DNA of 64,000 bases. Source: Ideonella paludis. Its GTDB lineage: Bacteria > Pseudomonadota > Gammaproteobacteria > Burkholderiales > Burkholderiaceae_C. Below, piece by piece: positions 42,634 to 59,471 of this stretch. Below the pieces are notes generated by a model. The model saw only the letters and a list, made by a program, of their open reading frames with translations. It ran no database searches and was not told the origin of the DNA. The position numbers and the translations under genes were made by a program. How positions within the stretch are numbered: the first letter of the stretch is position 1; every line of letters begins with the position of its first letter. The stretch covers positions 62,001 through 126,000 of the forward strand of contig NZ_JAGQDG010000001.1 in assembly GCF_018069865.1 (NCBI RefSeq), read 5' to 3'.

Positions 42634-43308
42634 ATGATCGAACTCCGCAACCTGACCAAGTCCTATCCGACGCCCGCCGGGCGCCGCTATGTCTTCAAGA
42701 ACCTGAATTTCAAGCTGCCCACAGGCTCGGGCATAGGCTTGATCGGCCGCAACGGAGCGGGTAAGTCCACCCTGCTGCGGCTGCTGGGCGGCATCGACGC
42801 GCCAGACAGTGGCCAAGTCATCACCGACCAAAGCATTTCGTGGCCTGTCGCGTTGGGTGGCGGCTTCCAAGGCTCCTTGACGGCGCGCGACAACGTCCGC
42901 TTCGTCTGCCGCATCATGGGGGCCACAGGCGCCGCCATGAAAGAAAAAGTAGAGTACGTCGAGCGCTTTGCCGAGATCGGCGATTGGTTTGACCTGCCGA
43001 TGGGCTCCTACTCGCCCGGCATGCGCTCACGCGTCACCTTCGGGTGCAGCATGGCGTTTGACTTTGACTACTACCTGATCGACGAAGTGCTGGCTGTCGG
43101 AGACCCCATCTTTCGCCAGAAGGCTTCCCGCGTCTTCAAAGAGAAGTTGGAGCGTGCTGGCGTGATCTTGGTCAGCCACAACCACAAGGAGATCAAAGAT
43201 CTGTGTAGCTCGGTCATCATGGTGCATAACGGGCAAGCCATGACTTTTGACGATGTTGATGAGGGCATTGCCGCCTTCAAGGAATTGATGGAGGAGTCCG
43301 AATCATGA
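42634..43308 (+). CDS. kpsT: capsule polysaccharide ABC exporter, ATPase (KpsT-like)
   Basis: 224 residues, the usual short KpsT/CtrD length without a Wzt-type C-terminal glycan-binding domain. Walker A GRNGAGKST is at 38-46, the signature YSPGMRSRVTFG near 126-137, Walker B YYLIDE at 146-151, followed by the switch His in VSHNHKEI. The lack of the extra domain points to a group 2/3 capsule-type exporter rather than O-antigen export. The stop overlaps the start of the next gene (ATGA). Confidence 0.94.
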   Translation: MIELRNLTKSYPTPAGRRYVFKNLNFKLPTGSGIGLIGRNGAGKSTLLRLLGGIDAPDSGQVITDQSISWPVALGGGFQGSLTARDNVRFVCRIMGATGAAMKEKVEYVERFAEIGDWFDLPMGSYSPGMRSRVTFGCSMAFDFDYYLIDEVLAVGDPIFRQKASRVFKEKLERAGVILVSHNHKEIKDLCSSVIMVHNGQAMTFDDVDEGIAAFKELMEESES

Positions 43309-44399
43309 AGGCTGCGTCTTTCACCCCCAAGCGTTTGCAGCTGGCCCTGATTGCCCTGCCCATGGCCTTGGCCACGATCTATTACACGCTGATCGCCTCA
43401 GACCGCTATGTCAGCGAGTCCATCGTGGCGGTAGGCTCGGCCTCTGTGGCCAGCGGCTCGTCGCCACTGGCCGTCGGCACGGGCACCAGCTTGGCCGCGT
43501 ACGTGGACACGCTCTACCTGATCGACTACATCCAGTCGCAGGCAGTGCTGCGCGAGCTTGATACCAAGCTGAAGCTGCGCGAGCACTACTCGGCGCCCCG
43601 CGCCGACTTGTTGTTCCGCCTCTGGCCCAGCGCCAGCCAAGAGTGGTTTCAGCGCTACTGGAAGTCTCGGGTCGAGCTGGAGTTCAACGACCTCAACGGC
43701 TTGTTGAAAATTCGCACCCAAGGCTTTGACCCCGCCACGGCCGAGGCCATCAATCTGGCTTTGCTCGAGACCTGCGAACGCTTCGTCAATGAGTTTTCTC
43801 GTCGCATTGGCCGTGAGCAAATGAAGTTCTCTGAGGCCGAATTGGCCAGCGCCTCGGCGCGCCTGCAGGCCGCTAAAGACAAGGTCGTGCAGTTCCAAAG
43901 CACGCACAAGGTTCTGGACCCACAGGCGCAGCAGACAGCTGCCAACGCCTTGACGGCCGAACTGCAAGCCACCATCGCGCGTCTTGAGGCGGACCTGAAG
44001 AACAAACAGGCCTTCATGCAGAACGACGCGCCGGCGGTACAGGCTGTGCGCGACCAAATTGCTGCCAACCGTGCCCAGTTGGAGGCGGAAAAGGCCCGCA
44101 CCACCTCGGCGCAAGCGGGCGACAAGATTGGCGCCTTGAGCGTGGAGTTCCAGAACCTCCAGCTTCAAGCGGCCTTCGCCGAAGACGCTTATCGCTCGGC
44201 CAATACAGGCCTGGAAGCGGCCCGCATTGAGGCCAGCAAGAAGCTCAAGAGCCTGATCGTGGTGGGTGCTCCCGCCAAAGCGGAGACGGCGGAGTACCCC
44301 GCCAAGCTCTACAACCTCTTCACCATTTTGGTGCTCTGCATCATTGTCTACACCGTCGTGCGACTGATGGTTGCCGCGATCCGTGAACACCAGGACTGA
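43305..44399 (+). CDS. kpsE: capsule export inner-membrane protein (KpsE/BexC-like PCP)
   Basis: 364 residues with membrane helices near residues 12-30 and 335-355 and a long alpha-helical coiled coil between (about 155-290, EQMKFSEAELASASARLQAAKDKVVQF, ATIARLEADLKNKQAF). This is the polysaccharide co-polymerase architecture of KpsE/CtrB/BexC. Motifs AAYVDTLYLIDYIQSQAVLRELD and KLYNLFTILVLCIIVYTVVRLM are typical. It would bridge the ABC exporter to the outer-membrane channel encoded next. Confidence 0.9.
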   Translation: MKAASFTPKRLQLALIALPMALATIYYTLIASDRYVSESIVAVGSASVASGSSPLAVGTGTSLAAYVDTLYLIDYIQSQAVLRELDTKLKLREHYSAPRADLLFRLWPSASQEWFQRYWKSRVELEFNDLNGLLKIRTQGFDPATAEAINLALLETCERFVNEFSRRIGREQMKFSEAELASASARLQAAKDKVVQFQSTHKVLDPQAQQTAANALTAELQATIARLEADLKNKQAFMQNDAPAVQAVRDQIAANRAQLEAEKARTTSAQAGDKIGALSVEFQNLQLQAAFAEDAYRSANTGLEAARIEASKKLKSLIVVGAPAKAETAEYPAKLYNLFTILVLCIIVYTVVRLMVAAIREHQD

Positions 44400-44403
44400 A
44401 GCC

Positions 44404-46110
44404 ATGACTGCCATGAAGAATCGCCTCATCATTGCCCTGGCTTTGGGCACCAGCCTTTGCGCCGCCCTGCAAGCCCAGACGCCGGTCACCCCGACGACCA
44501 CGGGCACCGCCACCACAACACAGCAAGCCCCTGCCGCCACGGCGCCCACCCCGGCGCCGACCAGCAGCACGGTCATGGCCCCCGGCCCACTGCCCGCCCA
44601 GCCCAACGCCGGGGCAGGACTGCCGGTGATGTTTGGCTCGCAAATGTTCAGCGGGCGCTTTGGCTCGGTGACCTTCACTGGTTTCAACCCCGACTACACC
44701 TTGGCGACGGGTGACCGCGTGTTGGTGCGCCTGTGGGGCGCAGTGACCCATGAGTCCACCCAGCTCGTCGACCCGCAGGGCAATATCTTCATTCCCAATG
44801 TGGGCCCGGTGAAGGTGGCAGGGGTGCGGAACGGCGAGTTGAACCAGTCGGTCGAGACCACCATCAAGCGCGTGTTCCGCGCCAATGTGGGGGTCTATGC
44901 CACTCTGGAAGCGGCGCAGCCCGTCAAGGTCTATGTCACGGGCTTTGTGCGCGCCCCCGGCCTCTACGGCGGCCTGTCCTCTGACTCGGTGCTCTACTAC
45001 CTGGACAAGGCTGGCGGCATCGACACCGAGCGCGGCAGCTACCTGAGCGTGGATGTGATGCGCAACGGCAAGCTGCGCTCGCGCCTGAACCTTTATAACT
45101 TCTTGCTCAAGGGCCAGATCGAGCAGATGCAGTTGCATGACGGCGACACCGTGGTGGTGGCCGCACGCAAGCACACGGTGACGGTGCAAGGGGAAGCCCA
45201 GAACGCCTACCGTTTTGAGCTGGCCGAGGCCCGCATCAAAGCAGCCGACTTGCTGGCCATGGCCTCGCCCACCCCCAATGCGACGCACATCAACATCGTG
45301 CGCTCCATTGGCCCAGAAAAGCGCAGCGAATATCACCCGCTGGCCAAGGCCAATGAAGTGATGGTGGAAGCAGGGGACGAAGTCACGCTGACCGCCGACA
45401 AATTCCCATCGACCATTCAGGTCCGGATCGACGGCGCCCACCAAGGCGAGCGCACCTTCATCTTGCCCTACGGTGCACGCCTGAAGGATGTGATTGAGCG
45501 CATCAACCCCGCACCGCAAGCCAATATGGACGCGCTGCAGTTGTACCGTCGCTCAGTGGCCCAACGTCAAAAGGAAAACCTGGACTCCACCCTGCGTGGT
45601 CTGGAGGCCGCCGCACTGACGGGCCGCTCTGCCACCAACGAGGAAGCCACGTTGCGCAAGAGCGAGTCCGAGATGATCATGCAGTTCATCGAACGCGCCA
45701 AGACCATCCAGCCCAAGGGCCAGGTGGTGTTGAGCTCCAAGGAGGCTGCTGCGGAGACGCTGATGGAAGACGGCGACGTGGTCCGTCTGCCGGAGCGCAG
45801 CAATGTCGTGTCCGTGTCCGGCGAAGTGCTCTTCCCCAACACCATGGTCTACACGCCCAATGCGGCTGCTGCGGACTATGTCGAGTTGGTGGGCGGTTTC
45901 ACCCAACGCGCCGACCGCAACAAGCTCTTGATCTTGAAGACCAATGGCACGATCGACACCAATGGCGGCATCCCTGGCCCCGGCGACGAGATCATGGTGT
46001 TCCCGAAGGTGGAAACCAAGTGGGTTGAAGTGGCCCGTGGCATCACTTCCGTGCTGTACCAGTTGGCGGTGTCGGCGGGCGTCTTGAACGGCTCGATCTC
46101 CGCCAAGTAA
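44404..46110 (+). CDS. kpsD: capsule export outer-membrane protein (KpsD/Wza-like, SLBB domains)
   Basis: ATG 44404 gives 568 residues with a signal peptide (IIALALGTSLCAALQAQ), then a Thr/Pro/Ala-rich spacer (about 26-75). A polysaccharide export (Poly_export) domain follows (FNPDYTLATGDRVLVRLWGAV, DPQGNIFIPNVGPVKVAGV), and SLBB repeats (VYVTGFVRAPGLYGG near 180; VTVQGEAQNAYRF; VSVSGEVLFPNTMVY near 480). This is the KpsD-type channel or periplasmic adaptor. A small CGCTG/CAGCG hairpin lies just after the stop (46112-46123) but lacks a T-run, so transcription may continue into the next gene. Confidence 0.92.
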   Translation: MTAMKNRLIIALALGTSLCAALQAQTPVTPTTTGTATTTQQAPAATAPTPAPTSSTVMAPGPLPAQPNAGAGLPVMFGSQMFSGRFGSVTFTGFNPDYTLATGDRVLVRLWGAVTHESTQLVDPQGNIFIPNVGPVKVAGVRNGELNQSVETTIKRVFRANVGVYATLEAAQPVKVYVTGFVRAPGLYGGLSSDSVLYYLDKAGGIDTERGSYLSVDVMRNGKLRSRLNLYNFLLKGQIEQMQLHDGDTVVVAARKHTVTVQGEAQNAYRFELAEARIKAADLLAMASPTPNATHINIVRSIGPEKRSEYHPLAKANEVMVEAGDEVTLTADKFPSTIQVRIDGAHQGERTFILPYGARLKDVIERINPAPQANMDALQLYRRSVAQRQKENLDSTLRGLEAAALTGRSATNEEATLRKSESEMIMQFIERAKTIQPKGQVVLSSKEAAAETLMEDGDVVRLPERSNVVSVSGEVLFPNTMVYTPNAAAADYVELVGGFTQRADRNKLLILKTNGTIDTNGGIPGPGDEIMVFPKVETKWVEVARGITSVLYQLAVSAGVLNGSISAK

Positions 46111-46149: not shown

Positions 46150-48819
46150 ATGGGCGTCGTCATTGAGGTTCCACGCAAGCGCTCGCACGCACAGGTCATG
46201 CTGCAAAGCATCCGTGTGCTGCGTGCCGCCGGCAGGCTCTTGGGGCGAGGCCAGACGCTGATTGACTTTGAAGTCAAAGTCACTCGAAGTTTGGGCTTGT
46301 TTGACCGCAAGCACTACTTGGCTCAAATCAATACGGCAGACCTGAAAGGTCTGTCGGCCTTGCGGCACTACGTGCTGTATGGCGATGCTGCGGGGCTCAC
46401 CCCCAGCCCGATGTTTGACCTCAAACATTACGACGCCCACTGCGGTGAGCGTCACGGCCTGAATCGCCTGCTGCATTACGGCCTGGTGTTGAGGCATCAG
46501 GGCATTTATCCGACAGCGTGGTTCGACGGCGAGTACTACCTGCAAGCCAACCCCGATGTGATGCAGTCAGGGCGCGACCCCCTGGAGCACTTCCAGAACT
46601 GGGGCTGGCGGGAAGGCCGCAGCCCGCTGCCAGGGCTGGACCTGCGGCGCCTGTTGAACAGCCAGCCGCAGCTTCGCGTGGCCAAGGACAACCCCCTGGC
46701 CTTGCTGGCCAGTGGCGCACTGGCTCACCTGCTGCATGACCAAGCGCTGCAGAGCGCCAACAGCAAGCCAGGACAGGCTGTAGCGGCCCACGCCCACCCG
46801 CACGATGAGGCCGACCAAGATTTACTCGACCCGACGTACTGGGTCGACTTGCAGCCCCGAACTTGGCCCAGCACACCGCTGGTCGACGTGATCATTCCGG
46901 TTCACGGCGGAGCGATAGAAACCTTGCGCTGCCTGTGGTCCGTGTTGACAGCGCCGGTGCAGACGCCGCACCGCGTGGTGGTGATCAATGACGCTGGCCC
47001 CGACCAAATCCTCAACGCCAAGCTGCGCAATTTGGCGGCGCGCGATTTGTTCACGCTGGAGCAAAACAAGACCAACTTGGGTTTTGTGAAGACCGTCAAC
47101 CTTGGGCTTCGGCTGCAGCGCGACCGAGATGTCGTCATCCTCAACAGCGACACCGAGGTCTATGGCAATTGGTTGGACCGGCTGGTGCAGATCGCCCAGC
47201 GCCGGCCCGAGTTGGCCACCATCACGCCGCTGTCCAACAATGCGACGATTTGCAGCTACCCGGAACCCCAGGCCGACAACCGCAGCCCACTCGAAGTCAC
47301 CCATGCGGAGATCGACGCACTGGCTGCGGAGGTGAATGCCGACCAAGTGGCCTACACCCCCACCGGGGTTGGCTTTTGCATGTTCATCCGCCGTGATGCT
47401 TTGAACGAAGTGGGGCTGCTGGACGAGCGTCGATTTGGGCGCGGGTACGGTGAGGAAAACGATCTATGCCAGCGCATGCTGCGACACGGCTGGCGACATG
47501 GCATTGCATGCGGTGTGTATGTGCGCCATGTGGGATCGGTGAGCTTCAAGGGAGAGGCGTCCGTGCGTACCGCAGCTGCACTCAAGACGCTGAGTAGGCT
47601 CTACCCAAACTACGAAGCGGACATTCATCGGCACATCGCTTCCGACCCGGCCTGGATCTATCGCGCTCAGATCGACTTGGCTCGACTCAAGCGCTGCGCC
47701 GAACGCAGCAACGTGCTATTGGTATGCCACAACCGTGGTGGAGGTACAGAAAGGCACATCGTCGAGCAAACCAAAGCACTACAAGATCAAGGCAAAGGCG
47801 TTTTTGAGCTACGCCCTTCCCACCAACCAGGTTGTGTCGCACTGGTCAACCCCGCTCTGTATCGTTTGCATAGCTTGGCCGCCTTGCCGCCTCTACCTTC
47901 GCAGTTTTTTGAGGAAGTGCTGGAGGCTCTCTCTATCGACGAAATCCATGTTCACCATCTGATTGATTTCCCGAGCGGAATGGGAGACCTGTTGATTGCC
48001 TGCAGCCGCAAACTCAATGTGCGCTTACGCATGGCAATCCATGATTACTATGCGATATGTCCTCGCGTAAATCTTGTGAACTCAGAGGGGCAGTACTGCG
48101 CACAGCCGCCAGAACATGTTTGCAATGCATGCCTCGAAAAAGACGATCTTCTGCGCACCACTGGCACTATCCAGACTTGGCGCTCTGGTGCACTTCGGCT
48201 CCTAGAGGCCGCCGATCGAGTGATTGTGCCCTCCAATGATGTTAAGCAAAGGCTGCAACACATGGCACCTCACATTGAGATGCACGTCGAGCCACACGAG
48301 GTGATTCAATCTGCAGAAGGAATGGTCTTCCCGACCCCGAGGCCCGACGAGCCCTTGCGTGTGCTCGCCATCGGTGCGATCAGCAGAATCAAGGGATACG
48401 ACGTACTGCGCCGCCTAGCACTCTCCATTCAAAATCGCAAGCTGCCGATGGAACTAGCGCTCCTAGGATACTCAATGGACGATGCTTGCCTCAATGACGC
48501 TGGGGTCGAACTGCTGGGCCGATACTTTGATCAGGAACTACCAGATCGCATCAGCGACCACGCTCCTCATCTGATCTTTATCCCCTCAATTTGGCCTGAA
48601 ACCTACTGCTACGTACTGTCTGCAGCACTTCAAAGCAACCGACGCGTTGCGGTTTTTGACTTGGGAGCGCAAGCAGCGCGAACTCAAGATCACAGTTGTC
48701 AGCACCTTGTGCTTCCTCTGTGGCTCGCCTCCGCTCCTGAAGAATTGGCAGCTCGACTGATGACTGCACATCCAGATGCAGCGCAACACACACACTTTGA
48801 CCTGTACAAGGCAGCATAG
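46150..48819 (+). CDS. bifunctional GT2-GT4 glycosyltransferase with N-terminal YYL..NPDV repeats
   Basis: 889 residues in three parts. Residues about 49-160 contain repeated FDxxxYL...L.HY...G motifs (LFDRKHYL, MFDLKHYD, WFDGEYYLQANPDV, then HFQNWGWREGRSPLPGLD), a module common in polysaccharide GTs. Residues about 245-500 form a GT2/GT-A domain (VDVIIPVHGGAIETLRCLWSVL, LNSDTEVYGNWLDRL near 330, GYGEENDLCQRML). Residues about 520-870 form a GT4/GT-B domain (VLLVCHNRGGGTERHIVEQTKAL, then VLAIGAISRIKGYDVL and PSIWPETYCYVLSAAL). GC content falls from about 65% to about 50% at nt 47,700, just at the GT2/GT4 border. It is likely a chain-elongating or repeat-unit enzyme with two activities. The gene ends 3 bp before the next start. 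Confidence 0.85.
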   Translation: MGVVIEVPRKRSHAQVMLQSIRVLRAAGRLLGRGQTLIDFEVKVTRSLGLFDRKHYLAQINTADLKGLSALRHYVLYGDAAGLTPSPMFDLKHYDAHCGERHGLNRLLHYGLVLRHQGIYPTAWFDGEYYLQANPDVMQSGRDPLEHFQNWGWREGRSPLPGLDLRRLLNSQPQLRVAKDNPLALLASGALAHLLHDQALQSANSKPGQAVAAHAHPHDEADQDLLDPTYWVDLQPRTWPSTPLVDVIIPVHGGAIETLRCLWSVLTAPVQTPHRVVVINDAGPDQILNAKLRNLAARDLFTLEQNKTNLGFVKTVNLGLRLQRDRDVVILNSDTEVYGNWLDRLVQIAQRRPELATITPLSNNATICSYPEPQADNRSPLEVTHAEIDALAAEVNADQVAYTPTGVGFCMFIRRDALNEVGLLDERRFGRGYGEENDLCQRMLRHGWRHGIACGVYVRHVGSVSFKGEASVRTAAALKTLSRLYPNYEADIHRHIASDPAWIYRAQIDLARLKRCAERSNVLLVCHNRGGGTERHIVEQTKALQDQGKGVFELRPSHQPGCVALVNPALYRLHSLAALPPLPSQFFEEVLEALSIDEIHVHHLIDFPSGMGDLLIACSRKLNVRLRMAIHDYYAICPRVNLVNSEGQYCAQPPEHVCNACLEKDDLLRTTGTIQTWRSGALRLLEAADRVIVPSNDVKQRLQHMAPHIEMHVEPHEVIQSAEGMVFPTPRPDEPLRVLAIGAISRIKGYDVLRRLALSIQNRKLPMELALLGYSMDDACLNDAGVELLGRYFDQELPDRISDHAPHLIFIPSIWPETYCYVLSAALQSNRRVAVFDLGAQAARTQDHSCQHLVLPLWLASAPEELAARLMTAHPDAAQHTHFDLYKAA

Positions 48820-48822
48820 CCA

Positions 48823-51800
48823 ATGAAAAGAATTAGCGAACTTCTGGGCAAGAAAGCAGTTCACAGCGGGCCACCTGTCATTACCTACAAGATCACTGTA
48901 GAACAAGTCCTTGCAACTTCAGTCATTGGATGGGCTGCCTCTTCCGAATTAGCTCCAGCTGAAGCATTCCACCTTCTCGTTGATGACGTCGTTCAAGAAG
49001 TCACCGCGACTCACATTCATCGGCTTGATGTCTGCCGAGCCATCGGCGCATCAGACCAACTCAGCTTTGGCTTCAGGATAGCCTTGCCCCTGTCGCTCTG
49101 GGATGACTCGGGCGAACTCCAAGCTCGGGAAGTAATGCTATGCGCCGGCAACGAAAGAAAACATTTAGAGCTGGCTCACACATTAAGTGATTGGCCATCC
49201 GAACTAGAAGCGAATTCCAGTCACACAGAGTTTTCGAATATTTCGCTCGCATTATTAAATCAATTGGCAGCGAAAGATAGACAAAGCCAGCTAAAGGAAG
49301 AGGACCTTTCGTACTTTAAATTATTAGCCCGAAAACTTGGCTGGAGAGATTGGCCTAAACTCCAACAGCCCGCCCCGGAGGGATTGCTAGAGCAATCAGG
49401 ATCCTTGGTTTGGACAGGATGGATCGCAGATGATTCAAATTTGGCCCAAGCATTCCAACTGTTCGTCAATGGGCATGAGGTTCAGATCGAACCCATCAGA
49501 GTAAACCGATCAGATGTTGCAGAAGCCAAATCTCTTAATCGCACAGATCTAGGCTTTGAAATCTCTATTCCCGCCAGCATTTGGGGCCACGCATCAGAGA
49601 AATCATCTGTCTCGTTGGAGCTTTGGGCGGGCTCGTGCAGACTCACCCAGGAAAATATTGTATGGGATCTATCGAAACTTACCAGCATCCTGAAGGATTG
49701 TTACCTTAAATCAGGTGGCACACAGTTTCCAAGGGAAGTACTTACCCTCTCAGGAGAAGGTCAATACTATTTTTTACTGTGCCTAGAGCATTTCCTTGCA
49801 TGCAGGCAAGAAGTAAAGCTGGAGAGATCTGTCCGAAGCTGGTTCCGTCACCATGCTGAAATATACGGGGTCAAGGTAGAAGAAGAGCTTAAGGACGAAG
49901 CGCCATTACTCAATCCACCTCGCCATGCAATCTCAACTATTGAACTCTGGAGATTGCTGCGTGCCTTCAATGCAGCAGTCCAAGAGGATGGCTCGAATGC
50001 CAAAGAGGCCTTCCAGGAAATTTGGCAGCGCTCTGATATCGACGCGGAAGTTAGGCATCAGTTGACATGCGCCTTAATTCCATATTTTTGTGGCATAGAT
50101 CGATACTTTGAAATACGGCCGTTTCTTGACATTTCAAGATTGAAGGTCATGGCTGCCGATACCAATGCTTGGAGTTTGTCACTTCAAATTCCCGAGGCCA
50201 CTTGGACTGCAGATTATGCGTTAGCAACTCAGCTGACTTCCAAGATCGCGTATGAGGCAAAGGGATGGATCAACACGGAATGCATCGCCACAGCATGCCG
50301 TCGACTACTGCACGCATGGCCGTCTACGCCACAGCATCAGTATGAAGCAGAAACAACCGCGTCGGCAATTCTAAATGTTCTAGAAGCCCAGTCTTTTGAT
50401 TACTGGCGTCGCAGCCATGACAAGCATCTGGTTGATGCCGCCACCTCTCTCATTATGCTGAGCAGAAGGATCACCTCGTCATTTGCATACAAAGCGTTGA
50501 CGACAATCATACTTCATTACGAATTCAATCCCCACTTTTGGAAGACCCTGGCAGAGCGCTGGGACGGTTTTTCATTTTGGCCGGCCGAGTTGAAGATTGC
50601 TCATCGGAATTTCATTCGCTTTCGTTACGCTCTTACTGAATCAACGCCGCAGCTCAGCACCGTTATAGAGGCGGTTCTACCCGCTGCTTTGAAAGGATCG
50701 TTGGATGCGAGCATTGCGCTGAGGGATGCCGCCCTGTGCGCCGCTCTGAACACCAAGCCAAATAGCGAGACTGAGCTACAAAAGGGTGTTTCGGCCGCCT
50801 GTACGACATCTCCGAATGAAATTATTCGATTCTTGTCGCACTTCCATGCGTCTTCTGTCGACAACATTGAAACAGCGGCTGCAACCGAGATAGTTGAACG
50901 CTGCTCAGGCGTCCCCCGAACCTATTTTACTTCGAGAAAAAATTCACTGATCGAAGGGCTGTGGAAACAGTCACCAATTCAGGCAAATATTACCCCCAAA
51001 GAGCTTCCGCTATTGTGCGGCATTGAGGCTCATGGCATTGGAGTCCTGATCGCTGCTCTATTTGCAGAACGGCAGCATAGATTCAACGAAACCAACAGCG
51101 ATCAAGTCACACTTGCGGAAGTTAGCAGGCATTGGCTCAAACTTTTCCACGACACCGCAAATCAATCAGTACCGCCATCTGCATTGTTACAGGCATGTCA
51201 ATTACTTATTGACTGGCAAGCCAACCCAAATGCACCCAAAGATGTGGCCCGCATAGCCTTTGAATTTAGAAGGCTTCTTTGCGAAAGGTATGGTGATGAT
51301 ATTTCTGAGGTATGCTCAGGCCCGACCAAGCTTGCGCATCCAACCGTAAGATCACGGGATCCAGTTAAAAGTACACTTGTAGCCATCTACACATGCAACA
51401 AGTATCTATCATCCAGAATCGCTGCCATACAGAACACGTGGGCCAAGAAGCTGGATGAGCTTGAAATTCCTTGGATAATTGTTGTTGGCAACGGCGATGA
51501 CTCTTTTGATGGAAGAGTGCTTTCACTTAACGTTCTCGACAACTATGAGTCCTTACCGCAAAAGTCAATTGCGCTAATTAAGTGGGTCTACAACAACACA
51601 AACTTCAGCCATCTATTCAAGATCGATGATGATTGCCACGTGGCAGTCGAGCGACTGTTCCATCAGTCCCCTCAATGGGGCCACCATTACCTTGGGCGCA
51701 AGTTAACTCGCGGACTTGGTACGACTGACCGAAGTTGGCATCGTGCACGCTCCGAGTCTACGCTCGCCAAAAACTCTCTGGACAAGTCACCCGAGCCATC

Positions 51801-53100
51801 AGTTTATGCTGACGGTGGTTCTGGGTATTTCCTTTCTAGATTTGCCATGTTTTCGGTTCTGCAAGCACTGTCTTCGACCGAAGGCGCTAGACTCACGCGA
51901 AGCGCCTATATGGAAGATAAACTGATTGGCGATTTGTTATCGCTCAAGGGCATAAACTTGTCTGAAGAAGGTTATGACACGCTGGTAAGGAGACGGTTTG
52001 GCGATGATCCTGTCCGCGTCTGCGCCTTCAGCAACAGCTTCTACCCCTCACAGGTGTCTCCCACAATGGTCTGCCATCTCGATGATGCAGAGAAGATACC
52101 TGAGATTTCCGATCTTCAGTCAAGCTCAATCTTGAGGCCAGAAAAAATATGGCCAAGCTACGCCGAGCCCAAAGTCTACGCAGCGGACGGCACCAATCAA
52201 CTTGAATTATTGAGCGATCATGACAAGGTTACCAAGGCCATAGACGCAGAGGTGATTGTCGTCTCTGTTGCCCGGAATGAAATGACACTGATGCCTCACT
52301 TTCTGGCACATTACAGATCGATTGGCGTGCAGTGTTTTATTATTGTCGACAATCTATCCGATGATGGTACTCGCGCATATTTGCTCCAGCAGCCTGATGT
52401 TTTGCTTTACAGCGCCGATACCGAGTATAAGAAATCCCATTATGGCGTAGCATGGCAGCAAGCGGTGCTGTCTTCGCATGCTTTGGGGAAATGGGTAATA
52501 TTGGCAGACATAGATGAATTTCTCGTCTTCCCATCGACGGAAGAGCAAGATGTCAGTGCATGGCTTGGCGAGATCTCAAAGACTGGCCATACCGCGGTAA
52601 ATGTTTTTATGATTGACATGTACCCTGGTGGTTCCCTAGATGATTGCGACTTTCGAATGGGCCCGCCTTTCGAATTGGCACCACTTTTTGAAGGTGAACC
52701 GCTGATTCGTTGGAAATTGGGCTCTGGCTGCTTCTCTAACAGCGCAACATGGCTAAGTGGGCTGCGTCATCGATTGATAGAAGATTCCGCACCAAATCTC
52801 TATACTTCACAGAAAGTCGCCATTCTAAAGTATTTCCCGTGGATGCGTCTTTCGGAAGGATTGCACTATGTCTCCAATATAGAGGCATGTGCGTCGCCGT
52901 GCTATTTTGCGCACTTCAAATATCATGCAGGATTTAAGCAAAAGGTCTTGAACGAGGTGCAACGGCGGCAGCATTTCAACGATGCAGAGGAGTATCAGAA
53001 GTATCTTGGCATGCTCACAGAGGGCAACAGCCCTCTATCAACAGAGACTTCAAAGAAATTCAGCTCTTATCTAGATTACAAGAATGCCACGGGCAACTAA
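48823..53100 (+). CDS. 1425-residue multidomain glycosyltransferase with duplicated N-terminal modules
   Basis: A very large protein coded in DNA of clearly lower GC (some rows below 40%). Two related modules of about 90 residues lie at about 33-125 and 195-286; each has GW.A....A.AF.L.V..........H/R..R.DV......L.F.I.LP.S.W. A helical central region of unknown type follows (about 290-840). Residues about 850-1010 resemble GT31/fringe-like galactosyltransferases (VAIYTCNKYLSSRIAAIQNTW, IDDDCHVA near 933, YADGGSGYFLSR). Residues about 1140-1400 resemble GT92/Glyco_tranf_2_4 enzymes (SVARNEMTLMPHFLAHYRSIG, DNLSDDGTRAYL, ADIDEFLVFP near 1228, FAHFKYHAGF). Each domain keeps its acidic metal motif. 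It probably acts in capsule repeat-unit synthesis. Family calls are by eye; substrate unknown. Confidence 0.72.
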   Translation: MKRISELLGKKAVHSGPPVITYKITVEQVLATSVIGWAASSELAPAEAFHLLVDDVVQEVTATHIHRLDVCRAIGASDQLSFGFRIALPLSLWDDSGELQAREVMLCAGNERKHLELAHTLSDWPSELEANSSHTEFSNISLALLNQLAAKDRQSQLKEEDLSYFKLLARKLGWRDWPKLQQPAPEGLLEQSGSLVWTGWIADDSNLAQAFQLFVNGHEVQIEPIRVNRSDVAEAKSLNRTDLGFEISIPASIWGHASEKSSVSLELWAGSCRLTQENIVWDLSKLTSILKDCYLKSGGTQFPREVLTLSGEGQYYFLLCLEHFLACRQEVKLERSVRSWFRHHAEIYGVKVEEELKDEAPLLNPPRHAISTIELWRLLRAFNAAVQEDGSNAKEAFQEIWQRSDIDAEVRHQLTCALIPYFCGIDRYFEIRPFLDISRLKVMAADTNAWSLSLQIPEATWTADYALATQLTSKIAYEAKGWINTECIATACRRLLHAWPSTPQHQYEAETTASAILNVLEAQSFDYWRRSHDKHLVDAATSLIMLSRRITSSFAYKALTTIILHYEFNPHFWKTLAERWDGFSFWPAELKIAHRNFIRFRYALTESTPQLSTVIEAVLPAALKGSLDASIALRDAALCAALNTKPNSETELQKGVSAACTTSPNEIIRFLSHFHASSVDNIETAAATEIVERCSGVPRTYFTSRKNSLIEGLWKQSPIQANITPKELPLLCGIEAHGIGVLIAALFAERQHRFNETNSDQVTLAEVSRHWLKLFHDTANQSVPPSALLQACQLLIDWQANPNAPKDVARIAFEFRRLLCERYGDDISEVCSGPTKLAHPTVRSRDPVKSTLVAIYTCNKYLSSRIAAIQNTWAKKLDELEIPWIIVVGNGDDSFDGRVLSLNVLDNYESLPQKSIALIKWVYNNTNFSHLFKIDDDCHVAVERLFHQSPQWGHHYLGRKLTRGLGTTDRSWHRARSESTLAKNSLDKSPEPSVYADGGSGYFLSRFAMFSVLQALSSTEGARLTRSAYMEDKLIGDLLSLKGINLSEEGYDTLVRRRFGDDPVRVCAFSNSFYPSQVSPTMVCHLDDAEKIPEISDLQSSSILRPEKIWPSYAEPKVYAADGTNQLELLSDHDKVTKAIDAEVIVVSVARNEMTLMPHFLAHYRSIGVQCFIIVDNLSDDGTRAYLLQQPDVLLYSADTEYKKSHYGVAWQQAVLSSHALGKWVILADIDEFLVFPSTEEQDVSAWLGEISKTGHTAVNVFMIDMYPGGSLDDCDFRMGPPFELAPLFEGEPLIRWKLGSGCFSNSATWLSGLRHRLIEDSAPNLYTSQKVAILKYFPWMRLSEGLHYVSNIEACASPCYFAHFKYHAGFKQKVLNEVQRRQHFNDAEEYQKYLGMLTEGNSPLSTETSKKFSSYLDYKNATGN

Positions 53101-53103
53101 TCT

Positions 53104-54810
53104 ATGAACCTCACCCACAGAAACACCGCGAAGCATTGGATCTGGACGGATCGGACCCTTCACGCCTCAGAAATTGCGTTCTTAAATCCGGATCTGGCGA
53201 AGTTGAGTTTCGCTTTGAATCCACTTGATATTGACCATATCACTGATCAAGATAGTGGCTGGGGGTCCGCCTGGCATTCTAAAAATCTATCTCAAAAGGC
53301 ACTTAAACTTCTCCCGGATGTGCCATATGTTCTTCAACAGATCCCGTGCGATACCCATCAGGATTTCGTTTACGCTTGCATTTCAAGCTTGACACGTGCT
53401 GGTTACACGCAGTCCTTCCTTTACCTGCATGATCCCTTTCTGCGACTTAGGCATTACATCAGTATTTGCGCCAATTTTAAGGAAAGGGATCGGGAAATAT
53501 GTTCAGCTGCCATAAAATGTGAGCTTCAAGATCGGTTACTCATTCGAGGGGCCATTGATCTCTTGGAGTCGAAGTCTACGCACTTTCACGACCTCCCATT
53601 GACAAACCTCTCGGATATCGATCAGGCGCCATGGAGGCTAGACAATGACTCCTCTACAGAGTTCACTTCATTATTGCGTCAACATCTTTCTCGCGTATTC
53701 GAATTCAACCCTAATTATGACGGGGAACTACTGGGGGATCTTTCTCGAGCTGAATCGTACTGGTTGCCGGACGTCCGCAAGACAGTAAAACCACTTCGCC
53801 CCATTTTCAGGATTACCGATGAGAAAGATATGGTGAAGGAGTTTAGATCGTCACCTCTGCCACACAATGTATGGCCGAACCAGTCCTTCAATTGGGCAGG
53901 ATCTGTTTATCTCAAAGAACAAAAAGCCTCAGATCAATTGTACTTAGAGATGAATAAGACTCTGCACCCACTGATATGGGGGCAGTCATCTCCAGTCATT
54001 GCGAAGATCTATCCAGATGATGCAGCGGCCAAGTTTTGCAGATTCAGAGAAGTAAAATTGATAGCAAATCAGTCGCCCAGAATTGAAGTTCTTGCGGCCT
54101 CAGGCGATGAGCGCTCAAGTATTGGCGCCATAGAGTTTAGCGCCCCTTCACCAGCATACATCGACGGAATACTGGTTAACAGTCATTCCTTAGGATATAC
54201 ACCGATCCCTAAAGTTGCATGCACATCAATTAAAGAGTTCTTATTTGAACTTATGCATGGCGAACCATTTACTCCATCACTGATCGACGACTCCACTCAT
54301 GTACATCAATTCTTTGATCGTCGATTAGTGCCTATTAATTTTGCCGATCATCGGATCATCGTCGTTCGAGACCCAATCCAGCGCTTTCTCTCGGGCTACT
54401 CGAATCGAGTGTTGCATCACAAAGAGTTGACTGAAGAGTACATTCTGCGACAGCCAAACGGCGCGGCATTCCTTGCAAAAAACTTGCCGACCACCCCGGA
54501 TATAGATGTGTTTGTCGAGAATTTTGAGTCTTACCGGGCTGTCGCCACCATCGATCATCATTTTAGACCCATTTCAGAATACATCCCAACTTTGGAATGC
54601 TACACAAATGTATACCCCTTCGAGCGCCTCAATGATTTTTTCTCGGATTTAATGCAAATAACAAAAAAATCAGCCGCCATTAGACACGCTCAAAGAGGAG
54701 GGTCAAAAATTGATAAGTCGCGCCTCTCGCCTGATTCATTGATAAAGTTGAAGCGAATTTTCGCAGCCGATTACGATTTATTAGGACAGCACTACAGGGC
54801 ACCAGAGTAA
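53104..54810 (+). CDS. sulfotransferase (family 2-like) with large unknown N-terminal region
   Basis: 568 residues starting 3 bp after the previous gene. The C-terminal 200 residues look like a sulfotransferase of the carbohydrate (HNK-1/Sulfotransfer_2) kind: the 5'-PAPS loop IPKVACTSIKEFLFEL near residue 368, the 3'-phosphate site VVRDPIQRFLSGYSNRV near 420, and the FVENF...DHHFRPISEYI stretch near 460-490. The N-terminal 360 residues match nothing I know; they include HDPFLRLRHYIS and a beta-rich part before the catalytic region. It likely sulfates the capsule glycan. It converges with the GT90 gene (1-bp gap). Codon use is AT-rich like its neighbours. Confidence 0.78.
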   Translation: MNLTHRNTAKHWIWTDRTLHASEIAFLNPDLAKLSFALNPLDIDHITDQDSGWGSAWHSKNLSQKALKLLPDVPYVLQQIPCDTHQDFVYACISSLTRAGYTQSFLYLHDPFLRLRHYISICANFKERDREICSAAIKCELQDRLLIRGAIDLLESKSTHFHDLPLTNLSDIDQAPWRLDNDSSTEFTSLLRQHLSRVFEFNPNYDGELLGDLSRAESYWLPDVRKTVKPLRPIFRITDEKDMVKEFRSSPLPHNVWPNQSFNWAGSVYLKEQKASDQLYLEMNKTLHPLIWGQSSPVIAKIYPDDAAAKFCRFREVKLIANQSPRIEVLAASGDERSSIGAIEFSAPSPAYIDGILVNSHSLGYTPIPKVACTSIKEFLFELMHGEPFTPSLIDDSTHVHQFFDRRLVPINFADHRIIVVRDPIQRFLSGYSNRVLHHKELTEEYILRQPNGAAFLAKNLPTTPDIDVFVENFESYRAVATIDHHFRPISEYIPTLECYTNVYPFERLNDFFSDLMQITKKSAAIRHAQRGGSKIDKSRLSPDSLIKLKRIFAADYDLLGQHYRAPE

Positions 54811-54811
54811 A

Positions 54812-55987
54812 TTATTTCGGCCTAGCGAATGATCCATTTACATTCCTACCGAAAGGGAATATCAACTTTTCGGAGTACTCTTTAAGCGTCAGATAGTCCA
54901 CCGCCTCTCTCAGTCTAACATTTAAATTTGGCTTCAATAGCTTATGGGCATCATTGATCATTTCAAGACAGCGCTCCTCGTCGCCTGCCAAGCGATCAAT
55001 GGCAGCCTCAATAGAATCTAGACTGGGCTCAACGGGGACAAAATGCTTCTCAGGCACAAGCCCCGCATCCAAAGCGGTTTCCCACTGACTCCTTACCATG
55101 AGTACCACGGAATTAGAGAGAAGGCTCCAGTATTTATTGGTACCGATATCATTACCATCCACCACCAACAAGAACTTTGATTTCCTCTGTTCACTTATTG
55201 GAATTCTGGTCGCGGTGCACCCTGCAAAAAGTGAGCTCAGTAATTTATTTTTTATTACAGCCTCTGCCTCACGAGGTGTGGTTATTAGTTTGACATCAGC
55301 CCATTGTTTTCCTTTCAGGGCATTTACAATTTTCATTCGATCGCAGGAATTAATACGTAGCACATCCTCTTCGCTTATCTCAGCCGCTTCCCTGAACATG
55401 GATTCCGCCCACCACATCTCTGAATTCCAATCGCTGTAAGTTCCGCTGAACCTACCCCTCCAAGTCAAAACGTTTTTCTTCTCTTTAAATGGAATCAAAT
55501 CAGGACCTTCAGGTATATTTCCGCTACCCGGCCCCATATAGTCGTATCCGAGCGGCATTAAGCAGACCTGATCCCGCTGAGCCACTCGCCTGCAGTACTG
55601 TATGATCGGCAGCCCATTCATCCCCGGTAGTGTCTTTTTATAATTCCACCCCTGCGCATCACACCAGTTGCTTATATAGATTCCACTCATATTCATTGCG
55701 ATTAACAGATTAGCAAATTCTGAATTTCTCCGCCCTATGGCCGGGCGATATTTTGGATTCACTGGGGAAAATCGTTTACTCTCAACATTTAAAGCAAGCG
55801 TCCGGTCAAAATTATTAACACTCAAAAACTCCACTCTCCCGGCATCAAAAATACTGATGTCTTTTAGCGAATCCATCTCCACCAACGCAGCGTCATCGAT
55901 GATGAATTGCCTAATATTCTGAAAATCAGCAGGTAGCCGATGCTTAAGTTGAGCCTCAATCCATGTGTCGATTTGATGTGCATTCAT
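54812..55987 (-). CDS. GT90/CAP10-like glycosyltransferase
   Basis: ATG at 55987 is fixed by a strong ribosome site (AAGGAGGTG) 8 bp upstream; 391 residues. Features of the CAP10/GT90 (LpsA-type) family: NVLTWRGRFSGTYSD near residue 180, KFLLVVDGNDIGTNKYWSLLSNSVVLMVRS near 275-305, and LVPEKHFVPVEPSLDSIEAAI near 315. GT90 enzymes add xylose or glucose-type sugars in capsules and LPS. It is the only minus-strand gene inside the AT-rich capsule block, with its own promoter (see 56014-56043), so it was probably inserted or is regulated on its own. GC is among the lowest of the window. Confidence 0.8.
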   Translation of the reverse strand: MNAHQIDTWIEAQLKHRLPADFQNIRQFIIDDAALVEMDSLKDISIFDAGRVEFLSVNNFDRTLALNVESKRFSPVNPKYRPAIGRRNSEFANLLIAMNMSGIYISNWCDAQGWNYKKTLPGMNGLPIIQYCRRVAQRDQVCLMPLGYDYMGPGSGNIPEGPDLIPFKEKKNVLTWRGRFSGTYSDWNSEMWWAESMFREAAEISEEDVLRINSCDRMKIVNALKGKQWADVKLITTPREAEAVIKNKLLSSLFAGCTATRIPISEQRKSKFLLVVDGNDIGTNKYWSLLSNSVVLMVRSQWETALDAGLVPEKHFVPVEPSLDSIEAAIDRLAGDEERCLEMINDAHKLLKPNLNVRLREAVDYLTLKEYSEKLIFPFGRNVNGSFARPK

Positions 55988-56013
55988 ACCGGTCCACCTC
56001 CTTTCAGACACCA

Positions 56014-56043
56014 AATGTAGACATTATTCTTCTACATTGTCAA
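56014..56043 (-). promoter_or_regulatory. sigma70-type promoter of GT90 gene, overlapped by an 8-bp inverted repeat
   Basis: On the minus strand a perfect TTGACA (56043-56038) is followed 18 bp later by TACATT (56019-56014). The inverted repeat AATGTAGA-N9-TCTACATT (56014-56038) fills the space from -35 to -10, exactly where a repressor dimer would block RNA polymerase. Confidence 0.6.
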
Positions 56044-56097: not shown

Positions 56098-56907
56098 ATG
56101 CCACCAATAACAAGCCCCGCCCCGTTTTTTATTGTCGGATGCGTACGCTCAGGCACCACGATGCTCCGAGATGCGCTTAGGCTTCATGATAATTTGGGTT
56201 GCCCTGAAGAGACTCATTTTTTCCGGTGGGGAGACCCCTTCGGTACTGACGCCTTGAATCGGACGCTCAGTAACAATCAGGTTCTCAAGAAGCATCGCGA
56301 GTTGGACGGAGTTACGGAAGATGAGTTCAGGGAACTGCTCGCCAAAAGCAACAGTCGGGCGGATCTGTATCATCGATACATGCGTCTCTATCTGGCGAAG
56401 AACAAGCCCAGCGCGACCAGATGGTTCGACAAGACTCCACAAAACGTTTACGGCGCAATGCTGATCGCCACCACCATGCCCAGGGTGAAGTTCGTTCATA
56501 TCGTGCGAGACCCTAGAAATGTTGCCGCCAGTCTGCGAATCGGCAAGGTGGTGAAGGTTGAGAGTATCGTGGGGTCTGCGAACTATTGGCACGAATCCGT
56601 GCAGATCATCAAGGGCCTGAAGCGCGCCTTTCCCGAACGCGTTCATGAATTGCGCTATGAGGACTTTGTGGCTAACCCCTTGGTTCACATCGAGTCCATT
56701 CTGAGTTTCCTGGGTGAGCCGTTTAACGCCGCCACTTTTGCGGATCTCAACATCAGAAACTCCGATCACGCGGAGGAGTCACTGCTCACCCCAGAAGAGC
56801 TGCAGCGACTTGAATCCATCTGCCAGCTTGGCATGAAGCGCTACAAGTACAAGATTGAAGGGCCAACCAGCAGCAGTCAATCGACTACATCTCAACTTTC
56901 AGAGTAG
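56098..56907 (+). CDS. sulfotransferase (Sulfotransfer_3 type)
   Basis: 269 residues. The PAPS-binding loop is VGCVRSGTT at residues 13-21, DKTP is at 111-114, and the 3'-phosphate motif VRDPRNVAASL is at 136-146. Together these give a confident sulfotransferase fold. A typical C-terminal segment LRYEDFVANPLVHIESILSFLGEPF is also present. Small bacterial members of this kind sulfate carbohydrates or lipids. It is the last gene of the lower-GC block; composition rises sharply after its stop. No PAPS synthesis genes are in the window. Confidence 0.87.
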   Translation: MPPITSPAPFFIVGCVRSGTTMLRDALRLHDNLGCPEETHFFRWGDPFGTDALNRTLSNNQVLKKHRELDGVTEDEFRELLAKSNSRADLYHRYMRLYLAKNKPSATRWFDKTPQNVYGAMLIATTMPRVKFVHIVRDPRNVAASLRIGKVVKVESIVGSANYWHESVQIIKGLKRAFPERVHELRYEDFVANPLVHIESILSFLGEPFNAATFADLNIRNSDHAEESLLTPEELQRLESICQLGMKRYKYKIEGPTSSSQSTTSQLSE

Positions 56908-56970
56908 GGATGCCCGGATCAGCCCTTGCGAGCTACCATGACTGGTCATTTTTTCCAAAGAGATCAGTTC

Positions 56971-57906
56971 ATGTACCAAATCAAACCGGAAGCCCCTGAT
57001 GAAGCCGTAAGCGCCCTCGGCACCAAGCGTGATTGGGTACAGGAGCCCGCCACCGTCTTGACCATGGACGAAGACTGGGGCCTCGCGGGCAGCGAAGACA
57101 TGCGCGTGTTGCGCGTCAAGACGGGCCACTTCACCGTCACCTCATCCCTGAATACGCGCCAGAAGGCTGATCGCCTCTTGGTGATCTTGAGCGGCGCGCG
57201 CGGCGCTGGCAAAGACACCGATGTCAAGCGCATGCAGTTCCTGCGTCGCGACTGGGATGCGCTCTACAAGATGCCGATTCTGGCCGTTTCTGACCCAGCG
57301 ACCGAAACCTACTGGGGCGGCGAAGTGCCGCGCGCTGGCCTGTATTTGGGCAGCGCATCCCACGACTTGGTGCCCGAGTTGAACGCCATGATCGACAAGG
57401 TCTGCAAGGAACTTGGCATCAGCACTGATCGCGTGATCATCATGGGTGCATCGGCCGGCGGCACTGCGGCCATGTTGATTGCCACTCAACGCAAGGTGGC
57501 TCGGGCTGTCGCCATTTGCGCCCCCTTCTTCACCGAGAAGTTCCGCAAGATCATCGCAGCCGCCATGGAAGCCATGGGCGGCACCACGGATGACTGGGTC
57601 CGCATGGCCAATGAAACACCGTGGCGCACACACCCGATGTCGGCCATCAAGCGCGCCGCCGAGCAGGGCAATGATGTCCGCATCGTTTGCGCACAAAACC
57701 TGCAAGACCCGCCCATGTACAACAAGCACTTCTCCAAGATGTGCAAGTTCATGTCCATCAACCCGTCAGCTGGCGGCGTGTCCACGGACGGCACCATGAT
57801 GGGCCTGCTGTATGACGACTGGGAAGGTGGTCACGGCTTCGAGTCCAAGAACTTCTCTGGCCCGATCTGGCGCCGTTCGTTGGAGTATTTCGACTCCGGC
57901 AAATAA
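56971..57906 (+). CDS. alpha/beta-hydrolase-fold protein in capsule locus
   Basis: ATG 56971 with AAAGAGA upstream gives 311 residues; an earlier in-frame ATG at 56938 is possible. The nucleophile elbow GASAGG is at 159-164 (S161), and GGHGFESKN near residue 290 may supply the histidine. The body has LLVILSGARG, ILAVSDPATETYWGG and AVAICAPFF. Similar hydrolase-like proteins occur in capsule and glycoprotein export loci (for example Asp2/XcbB-like groups), often as O-acyl transferases or esterases. GC is high again here, in contrast to the gene before it. Two hairpins follow it. Confidence 0.7.
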   Translation: MYQIKPEAPDEAVSALGTKRDWVQEPATVLTMDEDWGLAGSEDMRVLRVKTGHFTVTSSLNTRQKADRLLVILSGARGAGKDTDVKRMQFLRRDWDALYKMPILAVSDPATETYWGGEVPRAGLYLGSASHDLVPELNAMIDKVCKELGISTDRVIIMGASAGGTAAMLIATQRKVARAVAICAPFFTEKFRKIIAAAMEAMGGTTDDWVRMANETPWRTHPMSAIKRAAEQGNDVRIVCAQNLQDPPMYNKHFSKMCKFMSINPSAGGVSTDGTMMGLLYDDWEGGHGFESKNFSGPIWRRSLEYFDSGK

Positions 57907-58018: not shown

Positions 58019-58267
58019 ATGACTCCCGTTCACCAAAAAGTCGCTGACTTGATTCTGGAATACACCCGCGGCAAGACCCTCGAGGACGTTCAGAAAGCCC
58101 AAGGATTCCAAGACTTGGAGCTGGACTCTGTCGCCGTGGTCAGCCTGCTGGACGAGATTGAAGACGAGCTGAACATCGAGTTCGTCGAACTGCCCAAGCT
58201 CGCCATCACGCTGCCGGAGTTTTTGGCCTTGGTTGATCACCTCGTCGCCACCCAGCATGCGCAATGA
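58019..58267 (+). CDS. acyl carrier protein
   Basis: 82 residues. The phosphopantetheine site is S37 in LELDSVAVVSLLDEIEDELNIEF, with the usual acidic helix II. The overall helical pattern and length fit an ACP. It is not next to fab genes but to a ketoacyl synthase that overlaps its end by 11 bp, inside a capsule locus. It may carry an acyl group used to decorate or anchor the polysaccharide. A short leader precedes ATG with no strong ribosome site. Confidence 0.87.
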   Translation: MTPVHQKVADLILEYTRGKTLEDVQKAQGFQDLELDSVAVVSLLDEIEDELNIEFVELPKLAITLPEFLALVDHLVATQHAQ

Positions 58268-59471
58268 GGTGGTCATCACGGGCGTAGGCCTGCGCACCCC
58301 GATGGGGAATACGCTGCAGGACGTTCGCGCTGTCTTTGCATCAGGCACCCCCGTCGTGGCCAGCCATGCGGCACCCGATGGCCATTTGCGCGCTGTGGCC
58401 CGCCTGACAGAGGACTACGCCAGTGCCTTTTCTCGGCTGGACCGCAGCCTGATTGACCCTGTCGCGCAACTCTCCATCCTTGCGGCTGAGGCAGCCGTTG
58501 CCGACGCCGGGCTCGACCTGAGCACAGCGGACCGCGAGCGCATTGGCGTCTTTGTGGGGACGGGCCAGAACACGGCCCACACCTTCATGGAGGGCAGTAT
58601 CTCCTTGCAGGAGAAAAACACCCTCAAGACCTTCACCATCGCCCGGGGCTTGGCCAACGGAGTGGCGAATCATGTCTCTATCCGGCTTGGACTCCAAGGC
58701 GAGGCCCAAGCCATTGCTCTGGCCTGCGCCTCCTCCAACACAGCCATCGGCAATGCGGTTCGGCTGATTCGATCTGGCGAGTTGGATGGCGCATTGGCGG
58801 GCGGTAGCGACGCCACATACTCCGAGTTCATTTACCGAGGCTGGGAGGCCATGCGCATGTTGGCCCCCGTCCACCCCGATGGGGCCGAGCGCTCATGCCG
58901 CCCTTTTGCCAAGGATCGCAACGGCATCGTCTTGGGCGAAGGTGCGGTGATCTTCATGCTGGAGTCAGAGCGGCAGGCCAAAGCCAGAGGTGCCCGCATT
59001 CTGGCCCGCATTGCGGGCTATGGGGCCACCTCTGACGGCACGCACTTGCTGCAACCCGACGCACAGGGTCAAGCGCGCGCCATGACGAATGGCTTGCGTG
59101 ATGCAGGCCTGCAAGCACAGGATATTCAGTACCTGAACGCCCACGGCGCGGCCTCCACACTGGGCGACGCCACAGAGGTTCAGGCCATTCGATTGGCTTT
59201 TGGCTCGCACGCCCATGGCCTGCCCATCAGCTCAACCAAGGCACTGCATGGCCACATGCTTGGCGCCACAGGGGCGGCTGAATTGCTGGCCTTGATCGTG
59301 GCCCTCAATGACGGCTTGATCGCACCGACGGCCAATCTCTACGAGCCTGATCCGGCGTTAGACCTCGACTTCGTTCCACTTCACGCACGTCATGGCCCGC
59401 CACTGCAGGCCGCCATGTCCAGTAATTTTGCCTTTGGTGGCTCCAACGCCTGCCTTGTGCTGACTCGCTGA
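58257..59471 (+). CDS. beta-ketoacyl-ACP synthase (KAS II-like)
   Basis: 404 residues, standard KAS length. The Cys-His-His triad is visible: C157 in LACASSNTAIG, H296 in YLNAHGAAS, and H333 in STKALHGHMLGATGA; the GEGAVIFMLE and FAFGGSNACLVLTR segments are also typical. The active-site context ACASSN differs slightly from the common ACASG/ACATG of FabF. All catalytic residues are present, so it should condense acyl-ACPs. ATG 58257 lies inside the ACP gene end, implying coupled expression with that ACP. Confidence 0.9.
   Translation: MRNEVVITGVGLRTPMGNTLQDVRAVFASGTPVVASHAAPDGHLRAVARLTEDYASAFSRLDRSLIDPVAQLSILAAEAAVADAGLDLSTADRERIGVFVGTGQNTAHTFMEGSISLQEKNTLKTFTIARGLANGVANHVSIRLGLQGEAQAIALACASSNTAIGNAVRLIRSGELDGALAGGSDATYSEFIYRGWEAMRMLAPVHPDGAERSCRPFAKDRNGIVLGEGAVIFMLESERQAKARGARILARIAGYGATSDGTHLLQPDAQGQARAMTNGLRDAGLQAQDIQYLNAHGAASTLGDATEVQAIRLAFGSHAHGLPISSTKALHGHMLGATGAAELLALIVALNDGLIAPTANLYEPDPALDLDFVPLHARHGPPLQAAMSSNFAFGGSNACLVLTR

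Follow-up and report, generated by a model that had tools for sequence, protein, structure and literature searches.

A 1425-residue protein of Ideonella paludis joining GT31-type and Glyco_tranf_2_4 domains in a putative capsule locus

Architecture of the 1425-residue protein

The sequence analysed here, referred to below as the window, is a 64,000-nucleotide stretch of Ideonella paludis (assembly GCF_018069865.1, contig NZ_JAGQDG010000001.1, positions 62,001 to 126,000). Its plus strand carries, at positions 48823-53100, an open reading frame (ORF) for a protein of 1425 residues, present where the initial annotation had placed it; that observation as a whole was confirmed. The gene is separated by 3 nt from the glycosyltransferase (GT) gene upstream and by 3 nt from the sulfotransferase gene downstream, and genes similar to those for capsule export lie in the same locus (Table 1). 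From the N- to the C-terminus, the protein comprises two beta modules of about 95 residues, an all-helical middle, a GT31-type domain and a Glyco_tranf_2_4 domain. The same order was found in other genomes and is therefore not due to chance; its recurrence in other genera also rules out a chimera or an assembly artefact.

Table 1. Features of the 1425-residue protein gene and of the surrounding locus (window coordinates)
Feature	Position	Strand	Residues and remarks
KpsM-like export gene	41835-42623	+
KpsT-like export gene	42634-43308	+
KpsE-like export gene	43305-44399	+
KpsD/Wza-like export gene	44371-46110	+
GT2-GT4 fusion	46150-48819	+	889 residues, upstream neighbour
Whole gene	48823-53100	+	1425 residues
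Beta module 1	48880-49188	+	20-122
Beta module 2	49369-49692	+	183-290, homologue of module 1
All-helical middle	49669-51312	+	283-830, weak solenoid-type fold matches
GT31-type domain	51370-52167	+	about 850-1115, approximate borders
DDD motif	51625-51633	+	935-937
ED of the xED motif	51913-51918	+	1031-1032, candidate catalytic base
Glyco_tranf_2_4 (GT92-like) domain	52195-53037	+	about 1125-1405, approximate borders
DIDE motif	52507-52518	+	1229-1232
Sulfotransferase (PF03567)	53104-54810	+	low-GC cassette
GT90-type (PF05686)	54812-56014	-	low-GC cassette
Sulfotransferase (PF13469)	56098-56907	+

The C-terminal part contains two different GT-A-type domains, as had been proposed; Pfam cut-offs, motifs and the fold matches of a model of residues 841-1425 agree on this. 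The first head, described earlier as a GT31/fringe-like domain with a DDD motif, exceeds the cut-offs of both PF01762 Galactosyl_T (32.2 bits, cut-off 23, residues 899-1045) and PF02434 Fringe (24.1 bits, cut-off 21, residues 850-1012) and bears the acidic motifs KIDDD (933-937) and MED (1030-1032). The motifs shared by GT-A enzymes are DxD, the G-loop, xED and C-His (PMC7185993; papers are cited here from excerpts of their texts). The PF01762 score, the GT-A fold match and the DxD and xED motifs place the domain in GT31, and the head is probably an inverting beta-1,3 transferase. The window protein is the one match to PF01762 in its own genome at E ≤ 0.1, and none of 14 control genomes has a match over the cut-off. 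The second head matches PF13704 Glyco_tranf_2_4 with 87 bits (cut-off 27.5) over residues 1151-1248 and carries ADIDE at 1228-1232. Its former description as GT92/GT2_4-like with DIDEF therefore stands for Glyco_tranf_2_4 and for DIDE and falls for GT92, which Pfam rejects in favour of PF13704: PF01697 Glyco_transf_92 was unlisted for the window protein at E ≤ 10, a search in which HMMER filters drop most matches above about 0.1. In two Rhodobacterales relatives, PF01697 gave E values of 0.049 (L067) and 0.059 (L070). A GT7-type C-terminal head was not found either, PF13704 being the family listed for the region at E ≤ 10.

The DDD, ED and D-x-D-E motifs are invariant in all 14 rows of alignment A3 (window included) and occur together in 23 of the 24 rows of a larger alignment. 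The retention of both motif sets throughout A3 argues against the possibility that only one head works, the other being structural or acceptor-binding like CHPF beside CHSY, and we regard such an arrangement as improbable. It does have precedents, since GT31 domains can turn non-catalytic, the DxD being lost in CHPF (PMC12748766) and in COSMC (PMC7185993). A full-length gene of a genus-mate (L012, genome G008; L035 is the same gene, and L012 was used) has LDDVS in place of the GT31 DDD and AD in place of ED, and its second head keeps VDLDE, like CHPF or COSMC.

The model of residues 841-1425, with a predicted local distance difference test score (pLDDT) of 80.5 and a predicted TM-score (pTM) of 0.68, returned 100 Protein Data Bank (PDB) matches at E ≤ 0.001. 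A resemblance to two-headed enzymes is supported, as ranks 1-3 are CHSY3-CHPF chains (E 2.9e-13 to 2.0e-12). They are followed by B3GNT2, LARGE1 and B3GalT6, and rank 8 is the E. coli K4 chondroitin polymerase. Target TM-scores were 0.57-0.60 for C1GALT1 and 0.54 for Manic Fringe. A profile of the two heads run against the sequences of solved structures matched B3GALT6 (2.7e-9) and B3GALT5 (4.9e-7), both over the first head.

For residues 1-849 Pfam listed no family (E limit 10, HMMER filters on), and NCBIfam gave nothing for the 1425-residue protein at E ≤ 1. No hydrophobic N-terminal stretch was seen on the Kyte-Doolittle scale. The hydrophobicity peak (1.97 over 19 residues) lies at residues 730-748 in the helical middle, and the maxima of the relatives L031 (1.86), L036 (1.22) and L030 (1.28) lie at positions other than that of the window protein.

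The two N-terminal copies of a roughly 90-residue module expected from the sequence are homologous. Profiles of module 1 (11 sequences, L033 left out) and module 2 (12 sequences) aligned in hhalign with a probability of 99.57 and an E value of 9.8e-24 over 94 columns, the highest of 30 column-shuffled controls being 1.32. In the model, both modules have their elements in one order, five strands, a helix, a strand and two more strands, module 2 having an extra short helix; G-W, R-x-D-V, one G and one P are invariant or nearly so across 18 rows. Module matches occur in at least 6 of the 300 genomes of the order-level search, own genome included, where they fall in the 1425-residue protein and one paralogue, two in each. 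The paralogue (L108 4933-8649; G000 contig C11, about 808-812 kb) has 1239 residues; behind the same pair of modules comes a part that contains GT2. It adjoins a potassium-transporter-like ORF, and inspection of the 17 kb read by eye revealed no capsule export gene.

The 550 or so residues previously left without assignment correspond to residues 283-830, which consist of helices only in the model of the N-terminal 845 residues (mean pLDDT 79.1, pTM 0.44) and have no Pfam match, TPR included. Foldseek found no match of this N-terminal half at E ≤ 0.001; its best 50 matches, starting at 2.3e-3, were mainly helical solenoids of the HEAT/ARM type, accompanied by some chains of the immunoglobulin type (MHC, antibody, Fc receptor), perhaps owing to the beta modules. 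The profiles of the helical middle from the Ideonella/gamma group and from Rhodobacterales (11 sequences each) aligned in hhalign at 99.95% over 426 columns, with 20 shuffles at or below 0.3. By this comparison of sequence profiles, the helical middle is a conserved domain.

Relatives and the galectin-type domain of Rhodobacterales

Twelve complete marine relatives from Rhodobacterales carry a galectin-type domain at the position that module 1 has in the window protein, either at the N-terminus or after one or two extra GT2 domains. By hmmscan, PF00337 was above its cut-off in five of the 12, below it at E ≤ 0.032 in another five and without a match in two (L042 and L067); in the genome search, L044 scored 22.6 bits (over the cut-off) and L042 15.9 bits (under it). 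The signature H-x-S-x-R ... N ... W, a pattern composed after the alignment was seen, occurs in 12/12 sequences of the galectin group (with Q for R in L044) and in 0/12 of the module group. A profile of four of the galectin-type domains matched galectin-9 in the PDB (1.5e-10). The domain that follows the galectin is a beta module, aligning in hhalign with module 2 at 98.4% (five sequences) or 97.8% (all 12) and with module 1 at 97.0% or 95.5%, respectively. In the window protein itself, PF00337 was unlisted by Pfam at the E limit of 10 and the galectin signature is absent.

Module 1 and the galectin-type domain thus occupy the same first position without detectable kinship, hhalign giving 2%, and module 1 as a galectin relative was rejected. 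In a tree of the two heads with 24 rows, the switch between module and galectin is single, with support of 100/100; the window and L012 were flagged in it for deviant composition. The replacement of the first module by a galectin-type domain suggests a galactose-containing chain in Rhodobacterales, and the swap is the strongest pointer to N-terminal glycan binding.

Five further sequences stand outside the 12 Rhodobacterales rows and the tree: L039, L040 (truncated by a contig end), L072, L073 and L074 (broken frame). L039, also from Rhodobacterales, has no PF00337 match, L072 lacks both the GT31 head and the galectin, and L073 has the second head only, on another ORF. The match in L041 covers one GT domain only. 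The one or two extra N-terminal GT2 domains of L042, L044, L067, L069 and L070 make these proteins three- or four-headed, with about 1800-2050 residues. Galectin-type N-termini were also seen in other settings, namely in Methylobacter (L075; PF00337 24 bits, above the cut-off) with TPR and GT4-type domains and in Stagnihabitans (L076; 18.7 bits, below the cut-off) with GT2-like sequence behind, as judged by eye.

The genome searches of wider groups scored few first-look candidates per genome (3 for the class and for the phylum, 4 for the family of the Shimia genome and 15 for the order), and their counts are lower bounds. Within the genus, 9 of 16 genomes have a near-full-length match, which in two of them crosses a TGA before the ORF start used. 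Among a set of 100 relatives, ten have any match, all within the genus and one of them to the modules only. A pattern-limited scan gave 15 loci in named relatives, hosted by Ideonella, Burkholderiales, Vitreoscilla-labelled and unclassified metagenome-assembled genomes (MAGs), Methylobacter, Marinobacterium, Shimia, Pseudooceanicola, Stagnihabitans, a Rhodobacteraceae MAG and, with a single domain, one Clostridium MAG. Twenty plasmid records match, five of them with both heads (Tropicibacter, two Sulfitobacter, Thalassococcus and Palleronia). The tandem of the two heads is uncommon: it was found in at least 1 of 369 genomes of the class (the own genome), in at least 2 of 398 genomes of the phylum, 29 further genomes having a match confined to the second head, and in at least 11 of 295 genomes of the family of the Shimia genome, three of these being incomplete or rearranged. 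The phage records gave no match at E 1e-5, and the initial scan of genome contigs gave none.

The putative capsule locus and its variable cassette

The KpsM-, KpsT- and KpsD-like proteins encoded upstream reach their Pfam cut-offs. Among 17 related loci with fetched flanks, ten have KpsM- and KpsT-like genes and ten encode a protein related to one or other of the two sulfotransferases, a number that rises to 13 with the annotated sulfotransferases of L042-L044. PF05159 (KpsC/KpsS-type) matched four of the seven genomes or records searched; in the own genome, it matched ORFs of 738 and 427 residues (G000:C11:241274-244535).

Comparison with the locus of Ideonella MAG2 (L031) reveals where the two differ. 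The DNA is 78% identical up to position 48680 and 75% identical from 56114 onward; in between, only two patches align, at 64 and 69%, and both lie in the GT heads. Nothing corresponding to the sulfotransferase gene at 53104 or to the GT90 gene is present in the 24 kb fetched for L031. At the protein level, identity is 96% for KpsE, 79% for the GT2-GT4 protein and 45% for the 1425-residue protein. The guanine-cytosine (GC) content is 0.48, 0.46 and 0.45 in the three cassette genes (48823-56014) and 0.53-0.63 in the 12 others measured. In group 2 capsules, serotype-specific genes lie between conserved export genes, and the pattern at this locus is the same.

These comparisons bear on the question of which protein polymerises the chain. 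The two heads of the 1425-residue protein might form a transition or side-branch transferase that adds a linker or a decoration, the 889-residue GT2-GT4 protein then being the true polymerase. Transition transferases are a described class (PMC11666461), the GT2-GT4 protein is itself two-headed by Pfam, and the paralogue with the same modules carries GT2 instead. A strong relative (>300 bits) of the GT2-GT4 gene was found in the flank of 9 of the 17 loci, in L030 about 7 kb away and on the opposite strand. The variable gene is nevertheless the 1425-residue one, by the identities given above and by the break in DNA similarity near its borders. Variable genes tend to be those of polymerases and conserved ones those of anchor or linker enzymes, and we consider the transferase alternative unlikely.

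A coincidental capsule setting, with the protein glycosylating a protein or a lipid, appears very improbable. Plant galectin-GT31 enzymes do galactosylate the hydroxyproline of arabinogalactan-proteins (PMC4431829); against a similar role here, export genes and sulfotransferases adjoin the gene in several bacterial groups, and the gene belongs to a block that differs between otherwise similar loci.

Proposed function and comparison with known systems

The reading we favour, and consider fairly likely, is that the 1425-residue protein is the serotype-defining two-headed polymerase of an ATP-binding cassette (ABC)-exported capsule of the KpsMTED type, which is perhaps sulfated. In the presumed order of events, the GT31-type and Glyco_tranf_2_4 heads would take turns in extending a chain, primed by other enzymes, at its non-reducing end with two sugars taken from nucleotide donors. 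This would correspond to the disaccharide step envisaged in the initial annotation. While it grows, the chain would be bound and guided by the two beta modules and the helical arm; the neighbouring sulfotransferases would sulfate it and KpsMTED would export it. The suggestion of the initial annotation that the chain is held by the modules is strengthened by the galectin in the place of module 1 and by the non-catalytic domains that known capsule polymerases use for processivity or polymer binding; for the modules of the window protein, a glycan-binding role is suggested by their position.

Several observations weigh against this polymerase reading, including that reliance on position. The modules have no solved relative, the best PDB profile match being urease beta (E 0.11), and module 1 has no detectable kinship with the galectin set. 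The low pTM of the N-terminal model makes its placing of the modules and the arm relative to one another tentative. Compared over the whole length with two-headed enzymes, the model of the heads has low TM-scores (0.16-0.29) and a high root-mean-square deviation, so the heads match and their mutual placing does not. The KpsE-like protein is below its Pfam cut-off (Wzz, 14.1 vs 25.5), and among the matches listed all four export proteins stay below the NCBIfam cut-offs (KpsM 161 vs 300, KpsE 297 vs 437.5). In 7 of the 17 loci, some of them with short flanks, the flank showed no KpsM/KpsT pair. The distance between the PF05159 genes and the 1425-residue gene is about 126 kb, and PF05159 had no match in Methylobacter luteus (G470) or in two plasmid records, for which plasmid sequence only was searched. 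Other GT genes of the locus, at 46150, 54812, 40357-41631 and 62273, are alternative polymerase candidates.

The closest known counterparts are human CHSY1/CHSY3 with CHPF (GT31 + GT7), which provided the best fold match and in which, too, a single chain carries a GT31 head and, behind it, another GT-A head; CHSY3 has DxD motifs in both heads (PMC12748766). Unlike them, the window protein has Glyco_tranf_2_4 and not GT7 as its second head, shows no hydrophobic N-terminal stem and, together with its relatives, adds the helical arm plus beta modules or a galectin. A non-processive mode has been proposed for chondroitin synthases (PMC12748766), so the likeness to them is no argument for processivity. 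In Cps3D/Cps7D of Actinobacillus pleuropneumoniae, also from group 2 capsules, a helical domain likewise precedes two catalytic domains. It is a TPR arm, required for processive elongation, and its truncation makes the enzyme more distributive (PMC11666461). The helical region of the window protein differs in having no TPR match, and the catalytic domains of Cps3D/Cps7D are a glycerol-phosphate transferase and a GT-B galactosyltransferase. Bcs3 of Haemophilus influenzae type b (Hib) resembles the window protein in joining several enzymes and a small beta domain in one chain, and differs in its enzymes and in having an SH3b domain, which binds the polymer (PMC10299916), rather than beta modules. 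The Cps3D/Cps7D arm and the SH3b domain of Bcs3 make chain-holding by arm and modules plausible.

The two-headed E. coli K4 chondroitin polymerase and Pasteurella heparosan synthase 2 are both within the first 31 fold matches; they lack N-terminal modules of the window type, and their whole-length TM-scores are 0.16-0.23. To our knowledge, neither has a GT31 head. The combination of galectin PF00337 with Galactosyl_T PF01762 seen in the Rhodobacterales relatives is also found in plant GALT2 and GALT5, which belong to six such Arabidopsis proteins (PMC4431829). As described in that excerpt, the plant proteins have one GALT domain and no second head, and their target is hydroxyproline; the window protein carries no galectin but modules.

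In titles and abstract openings of the open-access literature, a partial coverage that makes absence weak evidence, we found no protein with GT31 and Glyco_tranf_2_4, no bacterial galectin-GT fusion and no description of this capsule. Multi-domain capsule polymerases are a known kind; this architecture, with two parts best known from eukaryotes, appears to be new among them. More speculatively, and in our view rather doubtful as a whole, the proteins could form a bacterial family of glycosaminoglycan-like polymerases that read their own product by a lectin. The two heads would build an alternating, galactose-containing, sulfated chain, and the exchangeable galectin/beta-module position before the helical arm would govern which acceptors are recognised and how long the chain becomes; some elements of such a plan would then recur, through common descent or convergence, in the chondroitin synthases of animals and the galectin-GT31 enzymes of plants.

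For the study of polymerases that alternate between two heads, such as chondroitin synthase, a bacterial protein with a GT31 head fused to another one would be a convenient model. The natural swap of module and galectin at one position offers a direct test of how non-catalytic domains affect acceptor choice and chain length in capsule polymerases; how the TPR arm does so was left open in the excerpt of PMC11666461. The protein might also become a tool for making defined polysaccharides.

Two further genes of the capsule locus have close counterparts in L031, namely those of an alpha/beta hydrolase (56926-57906, 97% identical) and of a beta-ketoacyl synthase (58233-59471, 83% identical).

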